Translations under genes and position numbers: made by a program
Shown here: piece by piece, positions 12,754-35,728 of the stretch
How the letters are laid out: every line of letters starts with the position of its first letter
Numbering within the stretch: position 1 is the stretch's first letter
DNA from: Methylocucumis oryzae
GTDB lineage: Bacteria > Pseudomonadota > Gammaproteobacteria > Methylococcales > Methylomonadaceae
Reading direction: 5' to 3'
DNA length: 35,827 nt
Assembly (NCBI RefSeq): GCF_000963695.1
Contig: NZ_LAJX01000040.1
Span: forward strand, 1 to 35,827
Notes under the pieces: generated by a model
What the model was told of the DNA's origin: nothing
Database searches by the model: none
Seen by the model: only the letters and a program-made list of their open reading frames with translations

Positions 12754-15475
12754 TTAGCTTAGTTTTCCATGACATTGCTTATACTTTAAGCCAGAGCCAC
12801 ACGGGCAAGGATCGTTGCGACCGACTTTGTTCCCTGTTCTGACGACAGGTTGCATTTTATCGGCGTCTAACTCTTGCTCGGCATCTTCGCTGTCAAGTTC
12901 GGTAATCCCTGGCGCTTGTGCATGTTCAAAATGCATTTCTCTAGGCGCTTGCATTTGCTCATCCATTAGCTGCAAATCTTCCTCTTGTTTAACTTGCACT
13001 TTATACAAAATACTAATGACTTCGTATTTAATATGCTCTAGCAAGCTGGTAAACATTTCAAACGCTTCGCGCTTATACTCTTGTTTCGGGTCTTTTTGCG
13101 CGTAACCTCTTAAATGAATGCCTTGGCGCAAATAATCCATCGCGGCTAAATGCTCTTTCCAGCTATTATCTAAGACTTGCAACATCACTGATTTTTCAAA
13201 ATGTTGTAAGACTTCTTCACCTAAGTGACCGGCTTTACTTTTATGCTCGTCTAATAATGCTTGATAAATAAGCTTGCGCAAGCCTTCTTCAGTCAGATTC
13301 GCATCTTGCTCTAGCATTTGTTTAACAGGAATTAACACATTAAACTCTTGCAATAAGCTTTCTTCTAAATCATCTAACGCCCATTGTTCCATCATGGTCT
13401 TAGGTGGAATGTACTGGGTGATAAAACGTGTTAACCACATCTTCTAAGATGATTTCAATAATGTCGGAAATTTGCTTAGCCGCCATTAATTCATTGCGTT
13501 GCGCATAAATCACTTTACGCTGATCATTGGCCACATCGTCATAAGCTAAGATTTCTTTACGAATATCAAAGTTACGATTTTCTACTTTACGTTGTGCATT
13601 TTCGATAGAGCGTGTTACCCACGGATGTTCTATCGCTTCGCCATTACCCATGCCTAATTTTTGCATTAAGGCAGCGACACGGTCAGACGCAAAAAATACG
13701 CATTAAGTCGTCTTCTAGCGATAAATAGAAGCGAGTAGAACCCGGGTCACCTTGTCGACCAGAACGACCACGCAACTGATTGTCGATACGGCGCGATTCA
13801 TGTCGTTCAGAGCCTATAACATGCAAGCCACCGGCGGCCACCACTTGGTCGTGGCGTGCTTGCCATTCAGCTCGCACACGTTGTTTATCAGCGTCACTGG
13901 CATCTTCGCCTAAGGCTTTTAACTCGGCTTCTAAATTACCCCCTAACACGATGTCGGTACCGCGTCCCGCCATGTTGGTCGCAATCGTCACGCCACCGGG
14001 TTTGCCAGCTTGTTCGATAATATGCGCTTCGCGTTCATGTTGTTTAGCATTGAGCACTTCATGTGGAATGCCTTGCTGTTTTAACAACATCGCTAACAGC
14101 TCTGAGTTCTCTATCGAGGTTGTGCCCACTAACACAGGCTGCTGACGGCTAACACACTCTTTAATGTCTTCAACAACGGCTATATATTTTTCTTTTGCCG
14201 TTAAAAACACAACATCGCCTAAGTCACGGCGAATCATTGGTCTGTGCGTTGGAATGACAATAACTTCCAACCCGTAAATTTTATTCAACTCAAACGCTTC
14301 CGTGTCCGCCGTTCCAGTCATACCGGACAATTTTTTCGTACAACCTAAAATAATTTTGGAACGTAATAGACGCTAAGGTTTGGTTTTCGTTTTGAATTTT
14401 AACCCGCTCTTTGGCTTCTATCGCTTGATGCAAGCCTTCAGACCAACGCCGACCTTGCATAATACGGCCAGTAAATTCGTCAACGATAATGACTTCACCG
14501 TTAGCAACAATATACTCAACGTCTTTTTTGAATAAGACATGCGCACGTAACGAAGCATTGAGGTAATGCAACATACGGATATTGCCGGCATCATAAAGGC
14601 TAGTGCCTTCAGCAATCAGCCCATGTTTAACCATTAGGTCTTCGATATGCTCATGACCGGCTTCGGTTAAATGAATTTGTTTGGTTTTTTCATCAACGGT
14701 GTAATCACCCGGCTCGTCTTCTTTTTCTTGCTTGCTTAACAGCGGGATAATATCGTTGGTTTTAATATAAATCTCAGTGCTGTCTTCGGTAGGCCCTGAA
14801 ATGATTAATGGCGTACGCGCTTCGTCGATTAAGATTGAATCAACTTCGTCGACGATAGCAAAACTTAAATCGCGCTGAACTTTTTGCTCTAAGCTAAAAC
14901 GCCATATTATCGCGCAAATAATCAAAGCCGAATTCGTTGTTCGTGCCATAAGTAATATCAGCCGCATAAGCAACACGCCGAGAAGCTTGATCCATGTGGC
15001 TTAAAATTACGCCAGTACTTAAGCCCAAAAAACCATATAAGCGCCCCATCCATTCTGAGTCACGCTTAGCTAAGTAGTCGTTAACGGTCACAACATGCAC
15101 ACCACGTCCAGGTAGCGCATTTAGATAAGCCGCTAAAGTTGCCATTAAAGTTTTACCTTCACCGGTCTTCATCTCAGCAATTTTGCCATCGTACAAAATC
15201 ATGCCGCCTATGAGCTGAACATCATAATGGCGCATACCAAACACGCGTGTTGAGGCTTCGCGTACTGCCGCAAAAGCCTCTGGTAATAAAGCGTCTAAAG
15301 TTTCACCTTGTTCTAAACGCTCACGGAATTCTTGTGTTTTAGCTTTTAGCGCATCATCGGATAGTTTTTCGTACTCTGCAGCCAGCGCATTGACTTTTTT
15401 GACCAGCTTTTTCTTCTTCTTAATCAGCCTTTCGTTTCGGCTACCTACAACAAATTTAACTAGCTTACCCAGCAT
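12754..15475 (-). CDS. secA: Preprotein translocase ATPase SecA (four homopolymer frame breaks)
   Basis: The motor of the Sec system: it pushes unfolded preproteins through SecYEG using ATP. Visible in order: Walker A region [33 protein letters not shown], the DEVD-type [20 protein letters not shown], the preprotein cross-linking region, [46 protein letters not shown] and the C-terminal zinc/SecB site [17 protein letters not shown] (C-x-C-x8-C-H). The frame breaks at plus-strand runs 13423-13426, 13691-13696, 14331-14336 and 14896-14899, each with one base too many. Correction gives 905 aa (E. coli 901) with [33 protein letters not shown] and [11 protein letters not shown] restored. As SecA is essential, these are sequencing errors. 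A -10 sequence lies at 15516-15521. Confidence 0.95.
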
Positions 15476-20397: not shown

Positions 20398-20712
20398 TTA
20401 TCACTCCATTAGGGAAAATTGGAGCGCATAACGTAACGGCTTAATATTGCAACAACGTGTCAATGGCTTAGTTTCTTGTAGTTGCTAAATATCCATAATG
20501 GCAAAAAATCAAAGCGCTTAATACCCTATCCAACGACTTATTTATTTCAGAGTAGACAAAATCACACACCCGTTCAGGAACATAAAAACAAGAAAAGCTA
20601 GCTCTGTTTCAATTGGCGACACTAATAAATGCTGCTAAACTGCTTGCCTTCTACGCAACACACATCGTTAACACCCGTCGCAAACTTGCTCAACGCAAGC
20701 CCCACACTCCTC
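20398..20712. other. 315-bp divergent intergenic region
   Basis: It lies between the metallophosphoesterase (minus) and hrpA (plus), so both promoters should be here. I see no repeat, RNA gene or strong promoter. An in-frame upstream ATG at 20629 would extend HrpA by 28 residues but has no ribosome site and no family match. Confidence 0.5.
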
Positions 20713-23700
20713 ATGTCACAGCAAGAAATCATCAAAACTTTAAGCAAACAACTGCCGCTTTGCCTTAGCCGTGACCGGCATGGCTTGAAACGGCAACTTG
20801 ACCGATTGCGTAGCGATGCGCAAAAAAATAAACTCGACGCGAATAAACTCGCGACTTTAGAGCAAAAGCTCAACGCCTCGATAGCGGCTAGAAATCAACG
20901 CTTAGCCAGTATTCCGCCGTTAAATTTTCCAGATTTACCGGTTACTTACAAAAAAGATGACATTGCCGAGTTAATCAAACAACATCAAGTGGTGGTCGTG
21001 TGCGGTGAAACCGGTTCGGGTAAAACCACGCAGCTACCCAAGATTTGTTTAAGCTTAGGGCGCGGCGCGGCGGGTTTGATTGGTCATACTCAGCCTAGGC
21101 GAATTGCTGCACGCACTGTTGCCGATAGAGTCGCGGAGGAATTAGGCGAAAGCATTGGCAAATCGGTGGGTTATAAAATCCGTTTTAATGATAAAACCCA
21201 TGAGCAAACCTTGGTTAAATTAATGACCGATGGGATTTTGCTGGCCGAATCGCAAAACGACCCGTATTTAAGCCAATACGATACGATTATCATCGACGAA
21301 GCACACGAACGCAGCTTAAACATCGATTTTTTGCTGGGTTATATGAAATGGTTATTGCCTAAACGCCCGGATTTAAAACTCATTATCACCTCGGCGACGA
21401 TAGATACCGCGCGTTTTTTCTGAGCACTTTAATAACGCACCGATTATTGAAGTCTCTGGCCGCACGTATCCAGTCGATATTCGCTACCGACCGATTGAAC
21501 AAAGTGAAAATGATGATGAAGACGATGAAACCAGCGATTTACTACAACACGCGATTTTAGATGCGGTTGATGAGTTATATCGCGATTTACGCGGCGATAT
21601 TTTAATTTTCTTAAGCGGCGAACGGGAAATTCGCGAAACCACCGAATCCTTGCGCAAACATCACCCCACGCTATACGAAGTATTGCCGCTGTATGCCAAG
21701 CTTAGCGTCGCCGAACAAGAACGCGTGTTTAATCCTAAAGGCGGTAAATTACGCATCGTGTTAGCGACTAACGTCGCTGAAACCTCACTCACCGTGCCAG
21801 GCATTCGCGGCGTCATTGATACCGGCCATGCACGCATTAGTCGTTATAGCCCGAAAAGCAAAATACAACGGCTACCGATAGAACGCATCTCGCAATCCAG
21901 CGCCAACCAACGCGCCGGCCGTTGTGGTCGGGTCGCCGAAGGGATTTGTATACGCTTGTATTCACGTGAGGATTTTAATGCTAGACCCGCGTTCACCGAG
22001 CCGGAAATCATGCGTACTAATTTATCGGCGGTTATTTTGCAAATGACTGCGCTTAACTTAGGCGAGATTGAAGCGTTTCCATTTTTAGAGCCACCCGATG
22101 AAAAAATGATTCGGGACGGTAAAACCATGTTGCAAGAAGTTAATGCGCTGGATAAAACCGGCAAGCTCACAGAAATAGGCAAACAACTGTCTAAATTTCC
22201 TATCGACCCTAAGCTAGCTCGCATGTTACTCGCTGCGGATAAGCTTAACTGTCTTAACGAGATTAGCATTATCGTCGCCGCGCTAAGCATTCAAGACCCC
22301 AGAGAAAAACCCGCTGATAAAATGGCGCAAGCCGAAGCTAAACATGCCCAGTACCGTCATCCTGAATCCGATTTCGTAAGCTTGTTAAACCTTTGGCAAG
22401 CCTATGAAGAGCAAAAAAAGCATTTATCCAACAGTAAACTAAGAAAATACTGCCAAGATAACTTTTTATCGTATATCCGAATGCGTGAATGGTTTGATAA
22501 TCATGCGCAAATACTGCAAATCATTAAAGGTGAATTAAAGCTAAAACTCAGCGAACAACAAGCCAGTTACGAACAACTGCATTGCGCGATTCTGCCCGGC
22601 TTATTATCGAATATCGGCTTTAGGCATGATCAATACGAATACTTAGGCGGACGCGGATTAAAATTTTTCATTTTCCCAGGTTCCGGCGTACACAAGCTAA
22701 AACCCAAGTGGATAGTTGCAGCCGAACAAGTCGAAACCAGTAAAGTCTATGCTCGCACCGTGGCGCGCGTAGAGCCAGAATGGATAGAGCAATGTGCCGA
22801 ACATTTAGTCAAACATAACTATTACGACCCGCATTGGGAAAAAAAAGCCGGGCGCTCTGCCGTGTATCAACGCACTATTCTCTACGGCTTAACCTTACAA
22901 GCGGGACGCAAAATCCCCTATGAGCATGTAGACGCTAAAGGCGCGCGTGAGATGTTTATTCAATCGGCGTTAGTCGAGCATGAATATCACACCAATGCGC
23001 CGTTTTTTACTGCTAACCAAAAATTATTAGAAGAAGTCGGCATGATTCAGCATAAAGGCCGACGCGTGGATTTAGTTGAAGACGAGTTGTGGTTATTTTC
23101 ATTTTATGACGACAAATTGCCGCCTGAGGTCACTAATGGTCCCGCTTTAGATACGTGGCGTAAAACGGCGGAAAAACAAAATCCTAAGCTATTATTCTTA
23201 ACCCGCGAAGATTTAACGCGCGAACAAGAGCATGTTGTCAACGAATGGGCGTATCCCGATAGTAAAAAATAGGGCAGTTGAGCATTGCTTTACAGTATCG
23301 CTTTGAGCCAGGGCATGACGAAGACGGTGTTACCGCTGTGATTCCTGTGCATTTGCTGAATCAAATGACACGCACGCCGTTTGATTGGCTAGTACCTGGT
23401 ATGTTAGAAGAAAAATGCGTTGCGATGATTAAAACCTTACCCAAAAATCTGCGCAAACACTTCGTACCAGTGCCTGAAACAGCAAAACGCTGTTTAGAAA
23501 TAGAGCCAGATTTTAAAGGCAGTATCGAAGAATGGCTAGGCACGCGACTACGCAAACTCACCGGCGAAGCAATACCGCTAAAACGCGTGGGTTATGGACA
23601 GCTTAACGCCACATTTACAAATGAATTACCGCATCGTCGATGAACACGGCAAGTTATTAGACTATGGCCGCGACTTGCGTAAACTGCAACAACAATACAC

Positions 23701-24619
23701 CGTGCAAGCAGTCGACAGTTTCGAACAACACGCCGCCGATGAATTAAATTACAGCGGTTGCATACAATGGGCTTTCGATGATTTACCCGAAAGCCATACC
23801 TTTATCCAACGCGGGCAAACGTTTACCGGTTTCCCAGCGCTGGTTGATGAAGGTGATGCGGTAGGGGTGCGTTTATTTGACACCCGTGCTAAAGCCGAGC
23901 AAGAACACATTCCAGGCCTACTAAGATTATTGCAATTACGTTTGCGCAAAGAATGCACGTATATCCAAAAAAACAACTTAAGCTCAGCCAGCGCCGAACT
24001 CAATTATAGCCGTTTGCCTCAGCATCCAATGTTCCCTAAGGCTCAAGCGTCTTCTTACAAAGATGACATGCTAACGCTCATCTTACATGCCGTCTTTATT
24101 GACGGTAAAACCATACGCACCGAACACGCCTTCGAGCAAAGCGTAAAAGACAATAAACCGCGTTTACAAACCCTAGCTAACGAAGCCTCGACCATCGCGC
24201 TAGACATTATGAACACCTACCAAGCGCTACAAAAAGACTTGCAACGTTTTAACCCTAAAGACCCGCTCGCTAACGACATCCGCGAACAACTTAATGTGTT
24301 AATTTACAATGGTTTTATCAAAGTAACGCCGTATGACTCATTCAAAGCGATTCCGCGTTATTTAAAAGCCATTCAATACCGCCTAGACAAACTAGACAAC
24401 AACCCACAAAAAGCCCAAGAAATCGCGCGCTACGCCATACGCTTCTGGAAAGACATAGAAAAACAAGCCAAAAAGCAAATCATCATCCCCGAACACGACC
24501 CGTTTCGCTGGATGCTAGAAGAGCTAAGAGTGTCGTTATACGCGCAGCAATTAAAAACCGCTTATCCGGTATCGGCTAAGCGGTTGGATAAGGCGTGGGA
24601 TGATAGAGGTGCGCGCTGA
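20713..24619 (+). CDS. hrpA: DEAH-box ATP-dependent RNA helicase HrpA (three frame breaks)
   Basis: A DEAH-box RNA helicase linked in E. coli to ribosome rescue and mRNA processing. Visible in order: Walker A VVCGETGSGKTTQLPKI, QPRRIAARTVADRVAEELG, motif II IIIDEAHERSLNIDF, motif III TSATIDTARFS, NVAETSLTVPGI, motif VI QRAGRCGRVAEGICIRLYS, then the HA2, OB and C-terminal HrpA regions (DEHGKLLDYGRDL). The frame breaks in T6 at 21414-21419 (one too many), A6 at 23264-23269 (one too few, or two too many) and GGG at 23589-23591 (one too many). The repaired protein is 1301 aa, against about 1300 in E. coli. Start chosen at ATG 20713 (MSQQEIIKTL). It is monocistronic. Confidence 0.92.
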
Positions 24620-27314: not shown

Positions 27315-28194
27315 TTAGTGTTTAAGTTGGTCTAGTTTAGTACTAGTTTCTTTGAAGATTTCCGCTGTGCGCTCAAGCGTTTGTGTTGTTGTGCTAAAAG
27401 ACTTTGATGCTTGAGAAAACTTATCATTGGGCTCTTTCGCTTTGTTATCCAATGGTTCATCATCTAATTCATTTTCAAAATCAACGTTTTTTAAGTGACA
27501 GCCCGTCAGTTGCTAAGCTATAGCGCCATTGTAAAAATGACTCGCGCGTGAATAAATAAGGGTCTAATGCCGCTTCGTCGATGAATTTAAGTGAGCCTTC
27601 GGCGTTAGCGCGAGTATTTAGCAGCGATAACAATTGCACAGGCGCACCTACATAGCTGCTTGGATTAGCTGCAGTATCGAAGACAGCACCAGGAATACCT
27701 CTTGCGGTAATCGGGCCTAAAAACGGTAACACTAAATAAGGACCGGTAGGCACCCCCCAAACAGCTAAGGTTTGGTCAAAATCTTCGTCGTTTTGCTCTA
27801 GGCCTACTCTTTTTGCTACATCGACGATGCCTAAAAGTCCTAACGAAGAATTAATCGCGAGTCGGCCTGTGTCTTTAGCGCTTTGCTCAAATTTGCCTTG
27901 AAGCACATCGTTAAACACAACGTTTACATTTTTTAAGTTGTTGTAAAAGTTAAACACCCCAGTCTGCATAAATTGGGGCGTAATCTTTCGATACACATTA
28001 GCGATAGGCTCGGCAATGTAGTTATCAACATGATCGTTAAACGTATAAATTTTTCTATTAATGTGTTCGTAAGGGTCAGATTTATTTTTCTCGCCTTGTT
28101 GATGCACTACGCCTGTGCTTGCGCAGCCAGTCAACATGAACAACACGCCAGCCATTGCTTTAAGCGTATGACTGGCTGATTTGAAGTGTGCCAT
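27315..28194 (-). CDS. mlaA: MlaA/VacJ outer-membrane lipoprotein (one frame break, C-terminal extension)
   Basis: MlaA lets phospholipids leave the outer leaflet of the outer membrane for periplasmic MlaC. The protein has a lipobox LTGC (C24), then SDPYEHINRKIYTFNDHVDNYI, NNLKNVNVVFNDVLQGKFEQ, GRLAINSSLGLLGIVDVA, FDQTLAVWGVPTGPYLVLPF and GPITARGIPG, all MlaA signatures. The raw frame stops at 27481 after SLKKR. Removing one base from the T6 run at 27487-27492 gives SLKNVDFENELDDEPLDNKA and a hydrophilic helical tail (SKSFSTTTQTLERT, STKLDQLKH), 292 aa in total. It is the last gene of hpnH-hpnM-mlaA, so here it may serve hopanoid as well as phospholipid traffic; that is inference. Confidence 0.88.
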
Positions 28195-28200
28195 AACAAC

Positions 28201-28809
28201 CTACAACTTAGAGTAATTATCAATTTTTTCGTTAATCTTGGCTATTAAAGCATCAAAGCCTTGTTGTTGTAAAATGTTGCTATACTCAGTTTGTTTTAAG
28301 GCAAGGTCGCTCACACCGTTCGCGATAACATTAATTATCTGCCAGCTATCGCCTTTTTCTTTTAGCATGTAGTCGAACTTAACATCTTTTTCATCTGGAA
28401 TTTTAAGGCGTGCATGAATGACAATGCCTCCTCTTGCTGTTTGCTCTTCCGAATCAAAGACAAAGGACTCTCCCGCATATTCTTTAAAATTATGGGCATA
28501 AGAGGCCACACTGAATTTGCTAAAAGTGTCTATTAAGGTTTGCTGTTGTGTTTCCGTGAGTTTTTCCCATTCTTTGCCAACCACAATACGCACGATTTTA
28601 TTTAAATCATGGCTTTTGGTTACGGCTTCATAGAGCTTTTGATAACGTCCAGCATAGCCTAGGCTTTTGCCTTGCTTCATAACATCGATTAACTCTGTTT
28701 GAAAGGTCTCGACGACTTGCTTAGCTGTACTGGCTTCTGCTGAGTAAGCAGCACCTGTGCTGAGCAATCCTAAGACTAAACATAAGGTTTTTAACAATGA
28801 CAACCGCAT
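28201..28809 (-). CDS. hpnM: MlaC/Ttg2D-type periplasmic lipid carrier (HpnM)
   Basis: A 202-aa protein with a cleavable signal (LSLLKTLCLVLGLLSTGAAYSA) and an MlaC domain: VVETFQTELIDVM, YEAVTKSHDLNKIVRIVVG, WEKLTETQQQTLIDTFSKF, SVASYAHNF and WQIINVIANGVSDLALKQTEY. MlaC proteins ferry lipids across the periplasm; the version in hopanoid clusters is named HpnM and is thought to work with the HpnN transporter, which is not in this window. The next gene, mlaA, starts 6 bp after its stop, and hpnH lies 61 bp upstream on the same strand. The name HpnM rests on context, since sequence alone cannot separate it from MlaC. Confidence 0.85.
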   Translation of the reverse strand: MRLSLLKTLCLVLGLLSTGAAYSAEASTAKQVVETFQTELIDVMKQGKSLGYAGRYQKLYEAVTKSHDLNKIVRIVVGKEWEKLTETQQQTLIDTFSKFSVASYAHNFKEYAGESFVFDSEEQTARGGIVIHARLKIPDEKDVKFDYMLKEKGDSWQIINVIANGVSDLALKQTEYSNILQQQGFDALIAKINEKIDNYSKL

Positions 28810-28870
28810 GATTTTTCACGCCTCCTAGGTAGTATATAAGCTGGTTGAACGTATGAGTTTTTCACAGAAA

Positions 28871-29977
28871 TTAATCGGCGGCTTCTACTCGAATGGGGAT
28901 GCCCGCCAGCGTGGGCTTGGCTGTTTCCTGCGCTTTAGGCGTAGGCTCAGGCACCATAGCTCCTGTGGTTTTAGGCCCAAACAAAGACACCAGCATTCCT
29001 TTTAATGGGTTTTTAAGCATATCTTCAACGGCTGTCGCTTCATAACCACAATGGGCCATGCAGTTAGCGCATTTAGGATTTTGGTTGTTGCCGTATTTAT
29101 GCCAAGGCGTGGTATCAATAAGCTCTTTAAAAGAGGCGGCATTGCCTTCATCGGCGAGCAAATAGCACGGTTTTTGCCAACCAAATACGTTACGCGTTGG
29201 ATTGCCCCACGGAGTGCACTCGTAGGCTTGATTGCCCGCTAAAAAATCCAGATATAAGCTGGAGTGGTTCAGTTTCCACCGCTTGGTTTTGCCGATTTTA
29301 AAAATACCCCGGAATAACTCTTTGACATCACGGCTTTTTATAAACACATCTTGTTGCGGCGCGCGCTCATAACTAAAGCCAGGTGCGATGGTAACGCCTT
29401 CTACGCCAAGCTCCATTGCATAATCTAAAAACTCGGCGACTTCTTCCGCATTTTCGCCTTGGAATAAGGTGCAGTTAATGGTGACCCTAAAGCCTTTGCC
29501 TAAGGCGAGTTTAATCGCTTCGACGGCGCGTTCAAAAACACCTTCTTGACAAACCGAGGCGTCGTGGCGCTCTTGTAAGCCGTCTAAGTGAACCGAAAAT
29601 GTTAAATATGGCGATGGCTTATAATCATCAATGCGTTTTTTCAATAATAAAGCATTGGTGCATAAGTAAACGTATTTTTTTCTAGCGATAATGCCTTCGA
29701 CAATTCTCGGCATGTCTTTATGGATAAGAGGCTCACCGCCTGGAATCGAAACCATAGGCGCGCCGCATTCATCGACGGCTTGCATACACTCTTCATAAGA
29801 TAAGCGTTTGTCGAGAATCTCATCTGGGTAATCGATTTTACCACACCCTGCGCAGGCCAAATTGCAACGAAACAAAGGCTCTAGCATTAAAACCAAAGGA
29901 TATTTTTTCACGCCTTTGATTTTTTGTTTCATCAAATAGCTAGCGACGGTTAACTGTTGACGTAAAGGTACACCCAT
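28871..29977 (-). CDS. hpnH: Adenosylhopane synthase, radical SAM HpnH
   Basis: HpnH joins the 5'-deoxyadenosyl group of SAM to hopene, giving adenosylhopane, the first side-chain step of bacteriohopanepolyol synthesis. The 368-aa protein has the iron-sulfur motif C38-NLA-C42-AG-C45 in EPLFRCNLACAGCGKIDYP, the GGEP SAM contact (VSIPGGEPLIHK), FSVHLDGLQERHD, and the C-terminal cysteine region CYLLADEG, then CANCMAHCGYEA, matching HpnH over its length. AGGAG stands 8 bases before ATG 29977. It opens the leftward unit with hpnM and mlaA and is divergent from sqs. A proline/threonine-rich tail (VPEPTPKAQETAKPT) follows the catalytic part. Confidence 0.95.
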   Translation of the reverse strand: MGVPLRQQLTVASYLMKQKIKGVKKYPLVLMLEPLFRCNLACAGCGKIDYPDEILDKRLSYEECMQAVDECGAPMVSIPGGEPLIHKDMPRIVEGIIARKKYVYLCTNALLLKKRIDDYKPSPYLTFSVHLDGLQERHDASVCQEGVFERAVEAIKLALGKGFRVTINCTLFQGENAEEVAEFLDYAMELGVEGVTIAPGFSYERAPQQDVFIKSRDVKELFRGIFKIGKTKRWKLNHSSLYLDFLAGNQAYECTPWGNPTRNVFGWQKPCYLLADEGNAASFKELIDTTPWHKYGNNQNPKCANCMAHCGYEATAVEDMLKNPLKGMLVSLFGPKTTGAMVPEPTPKAQETAKPTLAGIPIRVEAAD

Positions 29978-30415
29978 TGCAAATCTCCTGAAAGCGTTTA
30001 AGGTAGATAAGCCTTAACAAACTAAGTAAAAAGTTTAAGCTGTAGCGATAAAACAACAAGCATAAAACTGTTTTTTAAGATTGGTAACAGCAATTTATTT
30101 TAAATAAACTTTAAAATAGCTATGCAAGGTTTTATATAATACAAATGCTTAGATAGTCGACATTAGAATACTATCTTTTCGGTAACGACTCCAGAGTTTT
30201 ACAACCAGCGTTTGCATTCTAGCGTCTCGTTGTAAAAAAGTTATAATTGGTAAAATTACAACATATTAATTCAATTCAAGTTTTTAAAATGCGTGATTAT
30301 GGCGCTAACACCTTAAAATTTCAGTATTCGCGATAAAACAACATTGCTTTGCAAATTACCAACAAACAGTCTATTATTTCTACAACCATAACGTTAACGG
30401 ATAGCTTCTCCTGTC
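29978..30415. other. 438-bp divergent promoter region of the hopanoid cluster
   Basis: Very AT-rich, no gene. Two plus-strand TATAAT sequences occur at 30135-30140 and near 30242, neither with a good -35. Both hpnH and the sqs operon must be controlled from here. The repeated TTACAAC/GTTGTAA-like tracts around 30197-30262 may be part of an operator, but I see no clean dyad. Confidence 0.5.
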
Positions 30416-31624
30416 ATGAGCGCAGCACCTATTTCGCAACCGGATTTATTAATGCAATTATCGGACGATGATTTTCAAGCCGCTTTATTAGCGGGTGTGT
30501 CACGTACGTTTGCGTTAACCATTCCCCAGCTTCCTGTAGGCTTGTTTAGTGCTGTAGCCAATGCTTATTTGTTATGCCGTATCGTCGATACCATAGAAGA
30601 TGAAGTGTCTTTGTCACCTAGACAAAAACATTATTTTTGTGAAGAGTTTATTGACGTTGTAAGAACCGGTGATAATTCAGAAGCCTTTGCCGTTGAGTTA
30701 GCACCGTTATTATCTGAGCAAACTATTGCGGCTGAACATACGCTAATTCATGTATTGCCTAGAGTGATTCAAATCACGCATAGCTTTGCCCCAGCGCAAA
30801 TTGATGCTTTAGCCAGTTGCGTAGCAACGATGGCGGCGGGAATGCCGCTATTTCAAGATTTAAATTTGCGGGGGGGGTTAGCCACAGTCGCCGATTTGGA
30901 TAAGTATTGCTATTACGTCGCCGGTTGCGTCGGTGAAATGTTGACTAAATTATTTTGTCATTACTCTCCTGAAATTGCAGAGCATGAGCAAGAATTAATG
31001 CGCTTAGCGGTGTCTTTTGGCCAAGGCTTACAAATGACCAATATCTTAAAAGACATTTGGGATGATGCTAAACGCGGTGTGTGTTGGCTACCACAGGAAA
31101 TTTTCTCTGAGTTAGGTTATGACTTAGCGACATTAACACCTGAGACGGATTCAACGTTATTTAGAACCGGCTTAGCGCGTTTAATTGCGATAGCGCACGG
31201 CCATTTAGCCAATGCTTTAAGATACACACAATTATTACCTAGCCATGAAGTCGGCATGCGCCAGTTTTGTTTATGGGCGTTAGGCATGGCCGTGCTAACG
31301 CTTAAAAAAATCAGGCAAAATTTACATTTTAATCGTTCCGAGCAAGTAAAAATTTCCCGCACCAGTGTGAAAGCAACGATTGTGACTAGTCGGTTGCTAG
31401 GTCGCCATAACAGTGCATTAACTTTTGTTTTTAACGTTGCGAGTCGAGGCTTAACCACGCCAGACTGGCATTATTCTACTTTTTTATCTTCGGCAGACCG
31501 CTTTACGGGTCAGTGTGACGATTTATCTGTTGCTAAATCTACACTGACGAGTAGCGCCTGTGTGCATGATGCTATTGTGCATACAGAAGGTACACAGTCA
31601 CCCGCAGCCGACTCAAACCTTTAA
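30416..31624 (+). CDS. sqs: Squalene synthase-type prenyltransferase
   Basis: It condenses two farnesyl-PP to squalene (through presqualene-PP), the precursor of hopene. The 402-aa protein has two Asp-rich substrate sites: D58-TIE-D62 in CRIVDTIEDE, and D213-IW-DD217 in QMTNILKDIWDDAKRGVCWLP; plus YCYYVAGCVGEML and the early VSRTFALTIPQLP. The length is like eukaryotic-type squalene synthase (about 400), longer than HpnC or HpnD (~280). It is the first gene of sqs-shc-hpnG-hpnO, nine bases before shc. No hpnC/D/E trio is seen, so a one-enzyme route is likely, as described for Methylococcus. The C-terminal 60 residues are Ser/Thr-rich and lack an obvious membrane anchor. Phytoene synthase is the alternative, made unlikely by context. 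Confidence 0.88.
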   Translation: MSAAPISQPDLLMQLSDDDFQAALLAGVSRTFALTIPQLPVGLFSAVANAYLLCRIVDTIEDEVSLSPRQKHYFCEEFIDVVRTGDNSEAFAVELAPLLSEQTIAAEHTLIHVLPRVIQITHSFAPAQIDALASCVATMAAGMPLFQDLNLRGGLATVADLDKYCYYVAGCVGEMLTKLFCHYSPEIAEHEQELMRLAVSFGQGLQMTNILKDIWDDAKRGVCWLPQEIFSELGYDLATLTPETDSTLFRTGLARLIAIAHGHLANALRYTQLLPSHEVGMRQFCLWALGMAVLTLKKIRQNLHFNRSEQVKISRTSVKATIVTSRLLGRHNSALTFVFNVASRGLTTPDWHYSTFLSSADRFTGQCDDLSVAKSTLTSSACVHDAIVHTEGTQSPAADSNL

Positions 31625-31633
31625 GGATACGCC

Positions 31634-33590
31634 ATGTTTACCGATGCTAATCACTTAAGTCATAGTAGTCATTTATCGAGTTCTTCTGCTGCTATTGTCA
31701 GCCATGCGCTTGACTTAAATAGAGCAATAGAAGAAGCACACAACAAATTATTAAGTTTGCAACATGAATCCGGCTATTGGGTATTTGAACTAGAGGCCGA
31801 TTGTACAATTCCTGCCGAATACATCATGATGATGCATTATCTGGGTGATATTAACGAGGAATTACAAGTTAAAATCGCGCGCTATTTGCGTTCACGCCAA
31901 TCTGAAGACGGTAGTTTTCCGTTATTTACCGGTGGCATAGGTGACATTAGCGGCAGCGTGAAAGTCTATTACGCGTTAAAAATGTGCGGAGATGATATTA
32001 ATGCTCCGCACATGGTTAAGTTACGTCAGTACATTTTAAGCCAAGGGGGCGCGGCTAAAGCCAATGTATTTACACGAATTGCACTAGCGATATTCGAGCA
32101 ATTGCCTTGGCGCGGTGTGCCCTATATTCCGGTTGAAATCATGTTGTTGCCTAAATGGTTTCCGTTCCATTTAGACAAAGTATCGTATTGGTCAAGAACC
32201 GTGATGGTGCCGTTATTTATTTTATGCACCTTACGAACTAAAGCTAAAAATCCGCATAAGATTGATATTTTGGAATTGTTTGTTACGCATCCTGAGCAAG
32301 AGCGGCACTATTTTCCAGAACGTACGTTGTTAAACAAAGTCTTTTTGGGTTTGGATAAATTAGGTCGGCTTACACAACCGCTAATTCCTAAGTTTGTGCG
32401 TAACCGTGCGATAGAAAAAGCTAAAGATTGGATTATCGAGCGTTTAAATGGCGAAGATGGCTTAGGCGCTATTTTTCCAGCAATGGTTAACGCGTATGAA
32501 GTGTTGTTGTTATTAGGTTATCCAGAAGACCATGACTTAGTCGTGACCGCGCGTAAAGCGATTGATAATTTATTGGTGATTAACGAGCATGATGCGTATT
32601 GCCAACCTTGCGTATCGCCAATTTGGGATACCGGCTTAACGGCGTTAGCGTTACAAGAAGTCGGTGGTAGCAAAAATAAGCCTAATCTGGATAAAGCATA
32701 CACTTGGCTTAAAAGCAAACAGTTGAAAGATGAGCCGGGTGACTGGCAAGTTCGTCGTCCCGACTTAAAAAGGTGGCGGCTGGGCCTTTCAATACAACAA
32801 CCCACATTATCCCGATGTAGACGATACAGCGGTTGTGGCCTTTGCTTTTGCTAAAGCTGAGCAAGCAGAGTTAGAAGAGCCATTAATACGTGCAGCAGAT
32901 TGGACTTTAGGTATGCGCTCTAAAAACGGCGGCTATGGTGCTTTTGATGTGGATAACACGTATTACTACTTAAATGAGATTCCTTTTGCCGATCATGGTG
33001 CATTGCTTGACCCACCGACCGCTGATGTCAGTGCGCGTTGTTTAATGCTGTTGGCTAAAGTTGCCGATAAAAACCCGGCTTATCATGCGGGCTTAAGGAA
33101 CACCATTGACTATTTGCGTAGCGAACAAGAAGCGGATGGCTCTTGGTTTGGACGCTGGGGCACGAATTATATTTATGGTACTTGGTCAGTGTTATTAGGT
33201 TTAGAGCAAACTAATCTGCCTAAATCTGACCCTATGTATACCCGCGCAGCAGCCTGGTTAAAAAGTGTACAACGCGCTGACGGTGGATGGGGCGAGGATA
33301 ATTTTAGCTATCATGATAGCAATTATCGCGGCGCTTACCGTTTTAGCACGGCATTCCAAACGGCTTGGGCAATCTTAGGCTTAATCGCCGCCGGTGAAGT
33401 GCATAGCCCAGAAGTCAAATCGGGTATTGAGTTTTTATTGAAAGCTCAGCAAGCCGATGGGGTTTGGAATGATAAATGTTTCACTGCCCCCGGCTTCCCG
33501 CGCGTGTTTTACTTAAAATATCATGGCTATGATAAGTTTTTCCCATTGTGGGCGCTGGCTAGATACCGTAACGAGTTAAGCAAAAAGTGA
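31634..33590 (+). CDS. shc: Squalene-hopene cyclase (one frame break)
   Basis: It cyclises squalene to hopene and hopanol on the inner membrane. The 651-aa repaired protein shows QW-type repeats (SRQSEDGSFPLF, QRADGGWGED, QQADGVWNDK), the catalytic D-x-D-D in PDVDDTAVVAFAF, GAIFPAMVNAYEVLLLLG, PIWDTGLTALALQE, KNGGYGAFDVDNTYYYLNEI, and the closing GFPRVFYLKYHGYDKFFPLWALARY. The raw frame breaks at the A5 run 32767-32771. Removing one base gives DLKGGGWAFQYNNPHYPD, exactly the expected active-site approach. AAGGA precedes ATG 31634. It overlaps hpnG by 4 bp (GTGA), so the two are translationally coupled. Confidence 0.95.
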
Positions 33591-34264
33591 TTACCGGAAT
33601 TGTCGTCGCATTACCTGAGGAAGTGACAACCTTAACCTCGAAGCGCATAGAAAAAAGACATTGCGTATTTATTCGAGATAAAGTGTTAATCGCTTACTCT
33701 GGAGCTGGAGCTGATAATGCTAAAATCGCTGCCGATTTATTAATCAATAAAGGCGCGAATCGGTTAATCAGTTGGGGCTGTGCGGCGGCGTTAAGCGACT
33801 CGCTTAAGCCAGGGGATTTAGTGTTAGCGGATACCTTAATCGATGTTGACGATAATGAGCTAACGCTAAGCTCCGCCTGGTATGATTTTGTAAAATCAGT
33901 CATAAACTCGGTATTGCCGGTCTATAGCGGCGCTTTAACCGAGAGCGTTAATATTATTTCTTCTAGCCGCGAAAAACAGCATTTAAACACGATTACTAAC
34001 GCGGTTGCCTTAGATATGGAAAGCATAGCGGTAGCGAAAGTAGCTAAGCAAAAATCGCTACCTTTTATATCGGTAAGAGCCATTGTCGACCCTGCTAACA
34101 TGAACCTGCCGCAGGCTATTCGTTATGCGGCTACGGATGCCGGTGATATTGTTTTATCGCGCTTATTGTTATTTATTGCATTACATCCTACAGAACTACC
34201 CGGCTTAATTCGTTTAGCGCGTTATTTTAATGCAGCGAAAAAAAACTTTGGTCCGCGTCGCTAG
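33587..34264 (+). CDS. hpnG: Adenosylhopane phosphorylase HpnG
   Basis: HpnG removes adenine from adenosylhopane, giving phosphoribosylhopane or ribosylhopane. The 225-aa protein belongs to the nucleoside phosphorylase (MTA/SAH nucleosidase) fold: ITGIVVALPEEV, YSGAGADNAKIAADLLINKG, SWGCAAALSDSLKPGDLVL, and the DMES purine/ribose motif in AVALDMESIAVAKVA, then ISVRAIVDPANMNLP. It starts at GTG 33587, overlapping the shc stop by 4 bp. Position directly between shc and hpnO fixes the assignment over a general nucleosidase. Confidence 0.92.
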   Translation: MITGIVVALPEEVTTLTSKRIEKRHCVFIRDKVLIAYSGAGADNAKIAADLLINKGANRLISWGCAAALSDSLKPGDLVLADTLIDVDDNELTLSSAWYDFVKSVINSVLPVYSGALTESVNIISSSREKQHLNTITNAVALDMESIAVAKVAKQKSLPFISVRAIVDPANMNLPQAIRYAATDAGDIVLSRLLLFIALHPTELPGLIRLARYFNAAKKNFGPRR

Positions 34265-34336
34265 CAAGCTAGACCAAATAACTGACTTTAATAAACCGCT
34301 AGCGTAAGCATAAACCATCACGTCTTGAGTATTACA

Positions 34337-35728
34337 ATGACTTTTAGCATTGCCGAACTGTTTGCTCAGCATAGCACCGATAAATTCGATTTGCATGAGC
34401 AGTATTTAAATAACCAAATGGTTAGAGTATTAAAAACGATTGGCTATGACCGACATTACCAATCGGCGCGCGGTCAATATTTATATGACCAAAATGGTGT
34501 TGAATACTTAGATTTATTAAGTGGCTTCGGCGTGTTTGCGATAGGACGTAACCACCCAACCGTCGTAGCAGCACTGACCGAAACGTTAAATTTAGAGCTG
34601 CCCAATTTAGTTCAGTTAGATGTTTCATTGCTAAGTGGCTTATTAGCTAAAGAGCTATTAAAAACCACGCCTGATAATTTAACTAAGATGTTTTTTTGTA
34701 ATTCGGGTACGGAAGCGGTAGAAGCGGCAATTAAATTTGCACGCTATACTACTAAGCGCGAGAAAATTTTATATTGCGAACATGCGTATCATGGCTTGAC
34801 GATGGGCGCATTATCGTTAAACGGCGAACATGTGTTCCGTGAAGGCTTCGGGCCGTTATTACCTAGTTGTAGCGCTGTGCCGTTTAACGATTTGGCAGTG
34901 CTAGAAAACGCACTCAGCACACGCGATATTGCTGCGTTTATTGTTGAGCCGATTCAAGGTAAAGGCGTGAATTTACCTTCCGATGATTATCTGCCTGAAG
35001 TACAGCGGCTTTGTAAACAATACGGCACGTTATTTGTTGCCGATGAAGTACAAACGGGTTTAGGCCGCACCGGTAAGTTTTGGGCCGTTGAACATTGGAA
35101 CGTGCAACCCGATATGATTTGCATGGCTAAAGCCTTATCGGGCGGTTTTGTGCCGGTCGGCGGCGTGGCGATGACCGATAAAATCATGGATACCGTTTAT
35201 AACCGCATGGATAGAGCGGTGGTGCATGGCTCAACGTTCTCGAAAAATAATATGGCGATGGCGGCTGGCTTAGCCACCTTACATGTACTACGCGAAGAAA
35301 AGTTAGTCGAAAACAGCGCCACATTAGGCAACCAAATCATTGCTGAACTCAATGCATTAGCACCTCAATATGAGTTTTTAAAAGAGGCGCGCGGCAAAGG
35401 TATGATGATTGCCATTGAATTCCATGCTCCTAAAAGTCTGACGCTAAAAGCGGCTTGGACTATGCTAGAAACGGCTAATAAAGGGCTGTTCTGTCAAATG
35501 ATTACCATACCGTTATTTAAAGAGCATCATATTCTGACGCAAGTCGCAGGTCACGGCATGAATGTGGTCAAATTGTTGCCCCCATTAAATTTAACCGATA
35601 AAGACCGGCAACATATCGTAACGTCTTTCGATAAAACCATTGCCGATACGCATAAAGTCCCCGGCTCTATTTGGGATTTAGGCAAAAATCTAGCCGCTCA
35701 TGCGCTTAAAGGTAAAACAGGAGGCTAA
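34337..35728 (+). CDS. hpnO: Ribosylhopane aminotransferase HpnO
   Basis: A class III PLP aminotransferase (463 aa) that makes the C35-amino group of aminobacteriohopanetriol; methanotrophs are known for 35-amino hopanoids. Family marks: NGVEYLDLLSGFGVFAIGRN, FFCNSGTEAVEAAIKFARY, YHGLTMGALSLNG, VEPIQGKG, FVADEVQTGLGRTG, the PLP-lysine segment CMAKALSGGFVPVGG, and HGSTFSKNNMAMAAG. ATG 34337 is preferred; a TTG 12 bases upstream is possible and neither has a strong ribosome site. It lies 72 bp after hpnG, and the next gene begins one base past its stop, behind AGGAGG at 35719-35724. Confidence 0.92.
   Translation: MTFSIAELFAQHSTDKFDLHEQYLNNQMVRVLKTIGYDRHYQSARGQYLYDQNGVEYLDLLSGFGVFAIGRNHPTVVAALTETLNLELPNLVQLDVSLLSGLLAKELLKTTPDNLTKMFFCNSGTEAVEAAIKFARYTTKREKILYCEHAYHGLTMGALSLNGEHVFREGFGPLLPSCSAVPFNDLAVLENALSTRDIAAFIVEPIQGKGVNLPSDDYLPEVQRLCKQYGTLFVADEVQTGLGRTGKFWAVEHWNVQPDMICMAKALSGGFVPVGGVAMTDKIMDTVYNRMDRAVVHGSTFSKNNMAMAAGLATLHVLREEKLVENSATLGNQIIAELNALAPQYEFLKEARGKGMMIAIEFHAPKSLTLKAAWTMLETANKGLFCQMITIPLFKEHHILTQVAGHGMNVVKLLPPLNLTDKDRQHIVTSFDKTIADTHKVPGSIWDLGKNLAAHALKGKTGG

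Follow-up and report, generated by a model that had tools for sequence, protein, structure and literature searches.

The DNA analysed here, a 35,827-nucleotide stretch of Methylocucumis oryzae (the window; G000:C325:1-35827), comes from a draft genome (4.58 Mb over 389 contigs, 88.6% complete) and carries at 27481-35728 a divergent hopanoid locus in which hpnH-hpnM-mlaA on the minus strand stand back to back with sqs-shc-hpnG-hpnO on the plus strand, as read from open reading frames (ORFs) and profile searches. By its gene order this is a conserved hopanoid locus of a gammaproteobacterial methanotroph family, and phylogenetic trees mark the MlaA encoded in it as a distinct paralogue, split from the ordinary MlaA of these methanotrophs. 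With a rough probability of 0.43, we propose that HpnM and this linked MlaA act as a pair in handling hopanoids at the outer membrane, beside the export of hopanoids from the inner membrane by HpnN. Hopanoids are bacterial sterol-like lipids used as geological biomarkers, and a distinct MlaA tied to HpnM offers a testable outer-membrane partner in culturable methanotrophs.

Conservation of the hpnM-mlaA pair among methanotrophs

The mlaA gene of the locus (27481-28194, minus strand) encodes a member of the outer-membrane lipoprotein family with 229.3 bits on PF04333, far above the cut-off of 25, a match to the PDB structure of MlaA 8i8r (E 1e-23) and a lipobox, LTGC, read by eye at residues 21-24; on the NCBIfam equivalog NF011672, on which the locus copy alone was scored, it reaches 116.4 bits, below the cut-off of 375. 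Separated from it by 6 bp lies hpnM (28201-28809, minus strand), whose product belongs to the MlaC-like periplasmic carrier family, shares the Pfam family of MlaC (PF05494), matches MlaC structures (e.g. 5uwa, E 6.7e-8) and scores 213.5 bits on TIGR03481, whose cut-off of 160.1 is exceeded by the locus copy only of two matches in the genome. Passages of PMC12583986 ascribe to HpnM a possible role in hopanoid transport and call its exact function elusive. A further 61 bp separate hpnM from hpnH (28871-29977, minus strand), encoding the radical SAM adenosyl-hopene transferase (TIGR03470, 557.8 bits; cut-off 225.05).

Using the mlaA product as a query, 42 loci were retrieved, of which one from Nitrospira (33% identity, none of the other genes) was set aside. 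The remaining 41 loci, named after a methanotroph genus or family in 33 cases and as uncultured proteobacterium in eight, contain hpnM directly upstream of mlaA without exception, with alignment gaps of 10-116 nt between the two genes, followed in frequency by same-strand hpnH (40 loci), divergent sqs (38), shc (37), hpnG (35) and hpnO (28). Many of the missing genes fall at the ends of the available DNA, although not all do, as L053 lacks sqs and shc over the 8.2 kb past hpnH, and in L052, L054, L055 and L058 the 2.5-4.1 kb past hpnG contain no hpnO and no hpnN. The hopanoid regions of 13 family genomes were also opened, picked by their MlaA or HpnN matches (linkage in the three same-genus genomes had been glimpsed beforehand, and a fourteenth genome, G332, of which one other region was fetched, was excluded), and all 13 revealed one hpnH-hpnM-mlaA block facing sqs. 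In seven further genomes, from the set with a single MlaA described below, hpnM is again directly upstream of the linked mlaA in every case. Thus, the initial annotation, which had described a compact divergent hopanoid locus with sqs-shc-hpnG-hpnO facing hpnH-hpnM-mlaA across 438 bp, is borne out by the ORFs, the family matches, the gene content and its conservation; the placement of mlaA beside hpnM is kept throughout the loci found with this MlaA, and the comparison of layouts among relatives that it had proposed finds the same layout conserved in methanotroph loci. Its gene calls were likewise correct, whereas the start it gave for the locus (27315) lies 166 bp past the mlaA stop and the frameshift in shc went unreported.

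Such constancy bears on whether envelope and isoprenoid genes have merely come to lie together for neutral or historical reasons, with an mlaA lacking any hopanoid-related role. Other genes do occur in the neighbourhood (copC and copD, and, by eye, dxs and apt), but an hpnM-mlaA adjacency kept at short distance in all 41 loci and recurring in other lineages makes this explanation highly improbable.

The linked MlaA as a paralogue of the ordinary MlaA

From 119 extracted MlaA sequences, a careful tree was computed with 77 rows, besides a quick tree of 118 rows. In the careful tree, a branch supported at 99/92 has the 33 linked-type rows to one side of it, and another, supported at 98/98, the 33 ordinary MlaA rows of the family; in the quick tree, too, the linked family rows stay together on the same side of one branch (support 97). 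As an observation apart, an unlinked mlaA, that of L194, has neighbours that by eye resemble a SulP transporter and a leuA- or nifV-like gene.

The M. oryzae genome encodes further Mla components outside the locus. Genes for mlaE and mlaD are located on contig C354, with neighbours read by eye as mlaF and mlaB, mlaC is on C185, and a second, ordinary mlaA is on C384 (L018:3265-4123), where it is frameshifted and adjoins a broken gene that resembles gshA by eye. No mlaDEF gene was seen within the window, and no other mla genes were found in the hopanoid locus. Since mlaFEDB, mlaC, another mlaA and an HpnN-like gene are thus on other contigs, a single route shared by hopanoids and phospholipids through one MlaA and one pathway, as the initial annotation had suggested, is not needed in M. 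oryzae, where the distinct paralogy of the linked MlaA also speaks against it. The separate complete mla operon with its own mlaA, named there as what would refute the shared route, was found in part: its genes are largely present, but spread over C354, C185 and C384. Across the family, MlaA is found in 81 of 81 genomes, with at least two matches in 70 and one in 11, a broken gene possibly counting twice. The location of mlaA within the hopanoid operon and the lack of mlaDEF in the window favor the shared route, as does the finding that seven family genomes, where such a route is possible, revealed no MlaA besides the linked one; set against the additional mlaA, mlaC, mlaE and mlaD of M. oryzae and the plural matches in most of the family, they leave it improbable as a general explanation.

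These seven genomes emerged from the single-MlaA set, in which the likely places were fetched for 10 of the 11 genomes (all but G324) and the single MlaA could be located in eight. In G306, G328, G333, G349, G356, G373 and G375, which are 92-99% complete, it is the hopanoid-linked form, with hpnM-mlaA at the hopanoid locus (L239, L240, L241, L242, L245, L246 and L247), and only in G354 (82% complete), whose hopanoid contig ends beyond hpnM, is it the ordinary one. The linked form is therefore not a spare copy, being the sole MlaA in seven of these eight genomes, and in those seven it may serve phospholipids too. This brings in the explanation that the linked MlaA is a phospholipid MlaA on the common Mla route, clearing outer-leaflet phospholipids as hopanoids are inserted. 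Such a role would agree with membership of the same Pfam family as MlaA, with the ordinary mlaC, mlaE and mlaD of the M. oryzae genome, with an mlaC lying some 4 kb or less from the hopanoid mlaA in two genomes (L211 and L214) and with the seven family genomes in which no other MlaA was found. However, the direct neighbor in the examined loci is HpnM and not MlaC, and the linked MlaA forms a separate clade, so that we consider this explanation unlikely, if a serious one.

HpnN is probably encoded elsewhere and of another type

The initial annotation had remarked that HpnN was not in view, and it is indeed absent from the window, an HpnN-like gene being present on another contig, C387. This gene is itself broken, its two pieces scoring 625 and 241 bits with an HpnN cut-off of 751.85, and intact genes of the C387 type in the same-genus genomes G322, G348 and G370 score 883-900 bits, above that cut-off. 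The C387 protein shares 38% identity with the type of HpnN linked to hopanoid loci and 62-72% with its own type in relatives. Passages of PMC12583986 credit HpnN with the export of hopanoids, citing Doughty 2011. In the fetched loci, in which alone true linkage of hpnN was seen, hpnN is linked in 12 of the 28 that show both hpnG and hpnO, and unlinked in M. oryzae. When types were assigned by identity (62% to the C387 piece, 50% to a linked protein), the 81 family genomes contained the C387 type in 37, the linked type in 41, both in two and neither in five; this distribution has a Fisher p of 3.6e-15, uncorrected for kinship and with several linked-type matches at only 50-53%. No hpn gene turned up in the available DNA around the linked-type HpnN genes of G318 and G344. 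M. oryzae thus probably does have HpnN, though of a different type and at a different place.

Linkage of mlaA and hopanoid genes in other lineages

A phylum sample of 299 genomes contained HpnM above the cut-off in 12, M. oryzae among them, leaving 11 others with 12 loci. In three of these loci (G124, G136 and G210) mlaA adjoins hpnM, in G102 it is beside shc, and in G248 it is between sqs and hpnM, about 4.6 kb from the latter; the remaining six genomes revealed no mlaA on the available stretches, some of their contigs ending near hpnM. Because the linked MlaA of G210 groups with that genome's own unlinked copy (support of 97 in the Shimodaira-Hasegawa-like approximate likelihood ratio test, with a long-branch warning), the trees suggest that linkage of mlaA to hopanoid genes arose more than once. 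The linked MlaA proteins of G102, G124 and G136 group with the linked clade of the family with support of 98/96 when four f35 rows are left free, and their placement with the ordinary family copies was not rejected (p of 0.07 in the approximately unbiased test), and hence the existence of a hopanoid-specific MlaA subfamily across classes is unsettled by these trees.

A predicted hopanoid-balancing arm at the outer membrane

The families of sqs, shc, hpnG, hpnO and hpnH belong to the established pathway from farnesyl diphosphate to aminobacteriohopanetriol, and their products would carry out this conversion in M. oryzae. To this the hpnH arm would add HpnM, a periplasmic carrier resembling MlaC, and an MlaA that diverged from the ordinary one. 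The constant pairing of HpnM with MlaA, together with the kinship of the pair to MlaC and MlaA, hints at an arm keeping hopanoids in balance at the outer membrane. HpnN, probably encoded elsewhere in M. oryzae, would export hopanoids from the inner membrane, and by analogy with Mla the HpnM-MlaA pair could act as the return or balancing arm; where the linked MlaA alone exists, phospholipid work may fall to it as well. A more elaborate version, in which an Mla-like hopanoid shuttle consists of inner-membrane HpnN, periplasmic HpnM and an outer-membrane MlaA dedicated to hopanoids, co-switched with synthesis by one deeply conserved divergent element, and in which such linkage may have evolved repeatedly, is put forward only tentatively and is more doubtful than the pairing itself.

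Several observations weigh against a hopanoid-handling pair. Gene content, synteny, paralogy and the conserved spacer were observed directly, and from them we infer the substrate, direction and partner of the pair, as well as its regulation; synteny by itself is also compatible with a phospholipid role of the linked MlaA. The linked-type clade includes three unlinked copies (L182, L188 and L194; 51-56% identity), and in the quick tree unlinked MlaA from f35 genomes are interspersed with linked ones. Only nine alignment columns separate linked (53 rows) from ordinary (44 rows) MlaA cleanly, any binding-site meaning of these columns being conjectural. Outside the family, nine of the 12 above-cut-off hpnM loci lack mlaA next door, some contigs ending near hpnM, and a purely hopanoid-specific role is unlikely in the seven of 81 family genomes that have the linked MlaA only.

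Among known systems, the hpn clusters of Proteobacteria share shc, hpnG, hpnH, hpnM and hpnO, and in many relatives hpnN, with the locus of M. oryzae, which differs from them in that no hpnC or hpnD was found (a single sqs instead), mlaA is part of the locus and hpnN is unlinked. With the Mla system (MlaA-MlaC-MlaFEDB) it shares an MlaA family protein with a lipobox and HpnM as a member of the MlaC Pfam family, whereas HpnM replaces MlaC as the neighbor, the MlaA clade is separate and the locus holds no other mla genes that we could find. BstA, BstB and BstC, the sterol transport proteins of Methylococcus capsulatus, of which BstA resembles HpnN (PMC10942540), likewise move a polycyclic terpenoid lipid through the envelope as a set, but sterols rather than hopanoids, and the available text of PMC10942540 mentions neither MlaA nor MlaC. 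In layout the locus thus belongs to a kind already known, which is widely conserved and has in part been published, and no description of a hopanoid-linked MlaA or of the conserved spacer was found in the open-access literature searched.

A conserved, probable divergent control region between hpnH and sqs

The spacer between hpnH and sqs (29978-30415) measures exactly 438 bp. Before sqs it contains block C (30335-30378, plus strand), a promoter-like element of 44 bp whose words TTTGCAAA and AAAACAAC are both present in 51 of the 51 hpnH-sqs spacers first examined, the 80-nt spacer stretches being distinct in 49 of the 51. Block C reads as a -35/-10 pair (TTTGCA, 18 bp, TATTAT), and a plain promoter scan overall gave no excess over shuffles. 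Block B, TAGAATACTATCTTTT-N7-GACTCCAG (30164-30194, minus strand), includes the word TAGAATAC found in 44 of the 51 spacers and in three of eight held-out ones, and judged by eye may be the hpnH promoter. Block A, TGTAGCGATAAAACAACA (30041-30058, unstranded), holds the first copy (30045-30058) of a 14-bp exact direct repeat, whose second copy is at 30330-30343; the short repeat motif alone gives scattered weak matches elsewhere.

As a control, the commonest 10-mer was found to be common to 98% of the 250-bp stretches before sqs and to 66% before hpnH (the same spacer), and to at most 43% before hpnO, shc, hpnG, copC, dxs, copD, ordinary mlaA or C387-type hpnN, some of these upstream sets being coding or small and the mlaA set including other families. 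A weight matrix built from the 51 spacers, with a training range of 59-82 bits, was run on eight spacers fetched later, and seven of them scored 52-77 bits, within or slightly below that range; L248 has diverged (10.6 bits), with TTTGAAAA and a shifted spacing. The word TTTGCAAA occurs exactly in six of the eight. In conservation the spacer far exceeds other upstream regions. Outside hpnH-sqs spacers, no block C site above 20 bits was found in 2.46 Mb of fetched, partly overlapping DNA, which does not amount to whole genomes. A regulon sharing block C is hence unsupported, as all hits above 20 bits in that DNA are training or held-out spacers. A structured RNA in the spacer was also rejected, given no Rfam match up to E 1 and an hpnH leader that folds no better than shuffles (z -0.31).

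Block C is read as a regulator-bound promoter, a prediction based on sequence conservation, and a single conserved divergent control region probably drives the genes on either side. Induction of hopanoid genes 3.4- to 6.4-fold on methanol in Methylomonas sp. DH-1 (PMC6373157) fits common control of such a locus, these data coming from DH-1 and not from this spacer. The conserved spacer provides a handle on hopanoid regulation in organisms with biomarker hopanoids.

Squalene synthesis and the split shc gene

The sqs gene (30416-31624, plus strand) encodes a single squalene synthase of 402 amino acids, which belongs to PF00494, has squalene synthases as its best PDB matches and scores 118.7 bits on the nearest NCBIfam model, TIGR01559 squal_synth, below the cut-off of 286.75. 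In profile searches of the genome, 88.6% complete as stated, it is the only SQS_PSY gene; accordingly no hpnC or hpnD was found, and hpnE was not searched for. This upholds, with that limit for hpnE, the earlier reading of a single squalene synthase in place of hpnCDE, an arrangement already known from print: one SQS gene clustered with shc, without hpnCDE, is described in Methylomonas (PMC10745290) and in Acidithiobacillaceae (PMC8886135), and the squalene synthase of Methylococcus has been characterized (Ohtake 2014, as cited in PMC5462960). Nothing essential distinguishes the M. oryzae locus from this sqs-type squalene synthesis. Downstream, hpnG (33587-34264, plus strand; hopanoid-associated phosphorylase family) scores 163 bits on TIGR03468, below the cut-off of 187.1, and its position in the locus is conserved in relatives. 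The hpnO gene (34325-35728, plus strand) encodes a class-III aminotransferase (PF00202, 329 bits) presumed to perform the aminotriol step and named from locus context, there being no HpnO model among the listed 25 of 69 NCBIfam matches. The description of the locus as leading from farnesyl diphosphate to aminotriol is, going by these named families, a fair genetic reading.

The squalene-hopene cyclase gene shc (31634-33590, plus strand) is split into two frames (31634-32854 and 32835-33590). The cyclase-model match of the first frame stops at residue 379, where five A occur in a row (32767-32771), and on TIGR01507 the first part (457.8 bits) is above the cut-off of 431.1 and the second (365.4 bits) below. 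Elsewhere shc is unbroken, as each of the 49 further loci that contain both halves, a few of these being the same place retrieved twice, has it as a single open frame. Within the window, secA is also in pieces (ORFs 12754-13440, 13683-14330 and 14894-15475, minus strand), hrpA is broken into several frames within 20629-24619 (plus strand), and elsewhere in the genome broken genes were read by eye as parC and hemB; the secA and hrpA breaks are a sign of indel errors in the assembly. Because these genes are likewise broken and shc is intact in relatives, the frameshift is very probably an error of assembly or sequencing rather than the mark of a dead cyclase, which is much less likely, and a true loss of shc was rejected.

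Genes flanking the locus

Contig C325 runs on to 58,856 bp, and beyond hpnO it carries copC, copD, a gene for a 165-residue protein without a Pfam match and dxs, named by eye. The copC-copD pair and the conserved 165-residue protein (L017:230-2258) separate hpnO from dxs (L017:2255-4123) here and in many relatives. By eye, dxs also occurs beyond mlaA in eight of the 13 opened family genomes (L183, L189, L192, L195, L197, L202, L208 and L030), and in some loci (L189, L030) it is at both ends of the hopanoid locus. In G329 (L211:3890-8739), genes read by eye as hemB, cmoB, ispA and apt, together with mlaC, adjoin the hopanoid mlaA; this mlaC product is 72% identical to that of M. oryzae, and G301 (L214) likewise has mlaC there. 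An ORF with RHS repeats is also found at 522-1286 of the window, close to where the contig begins.

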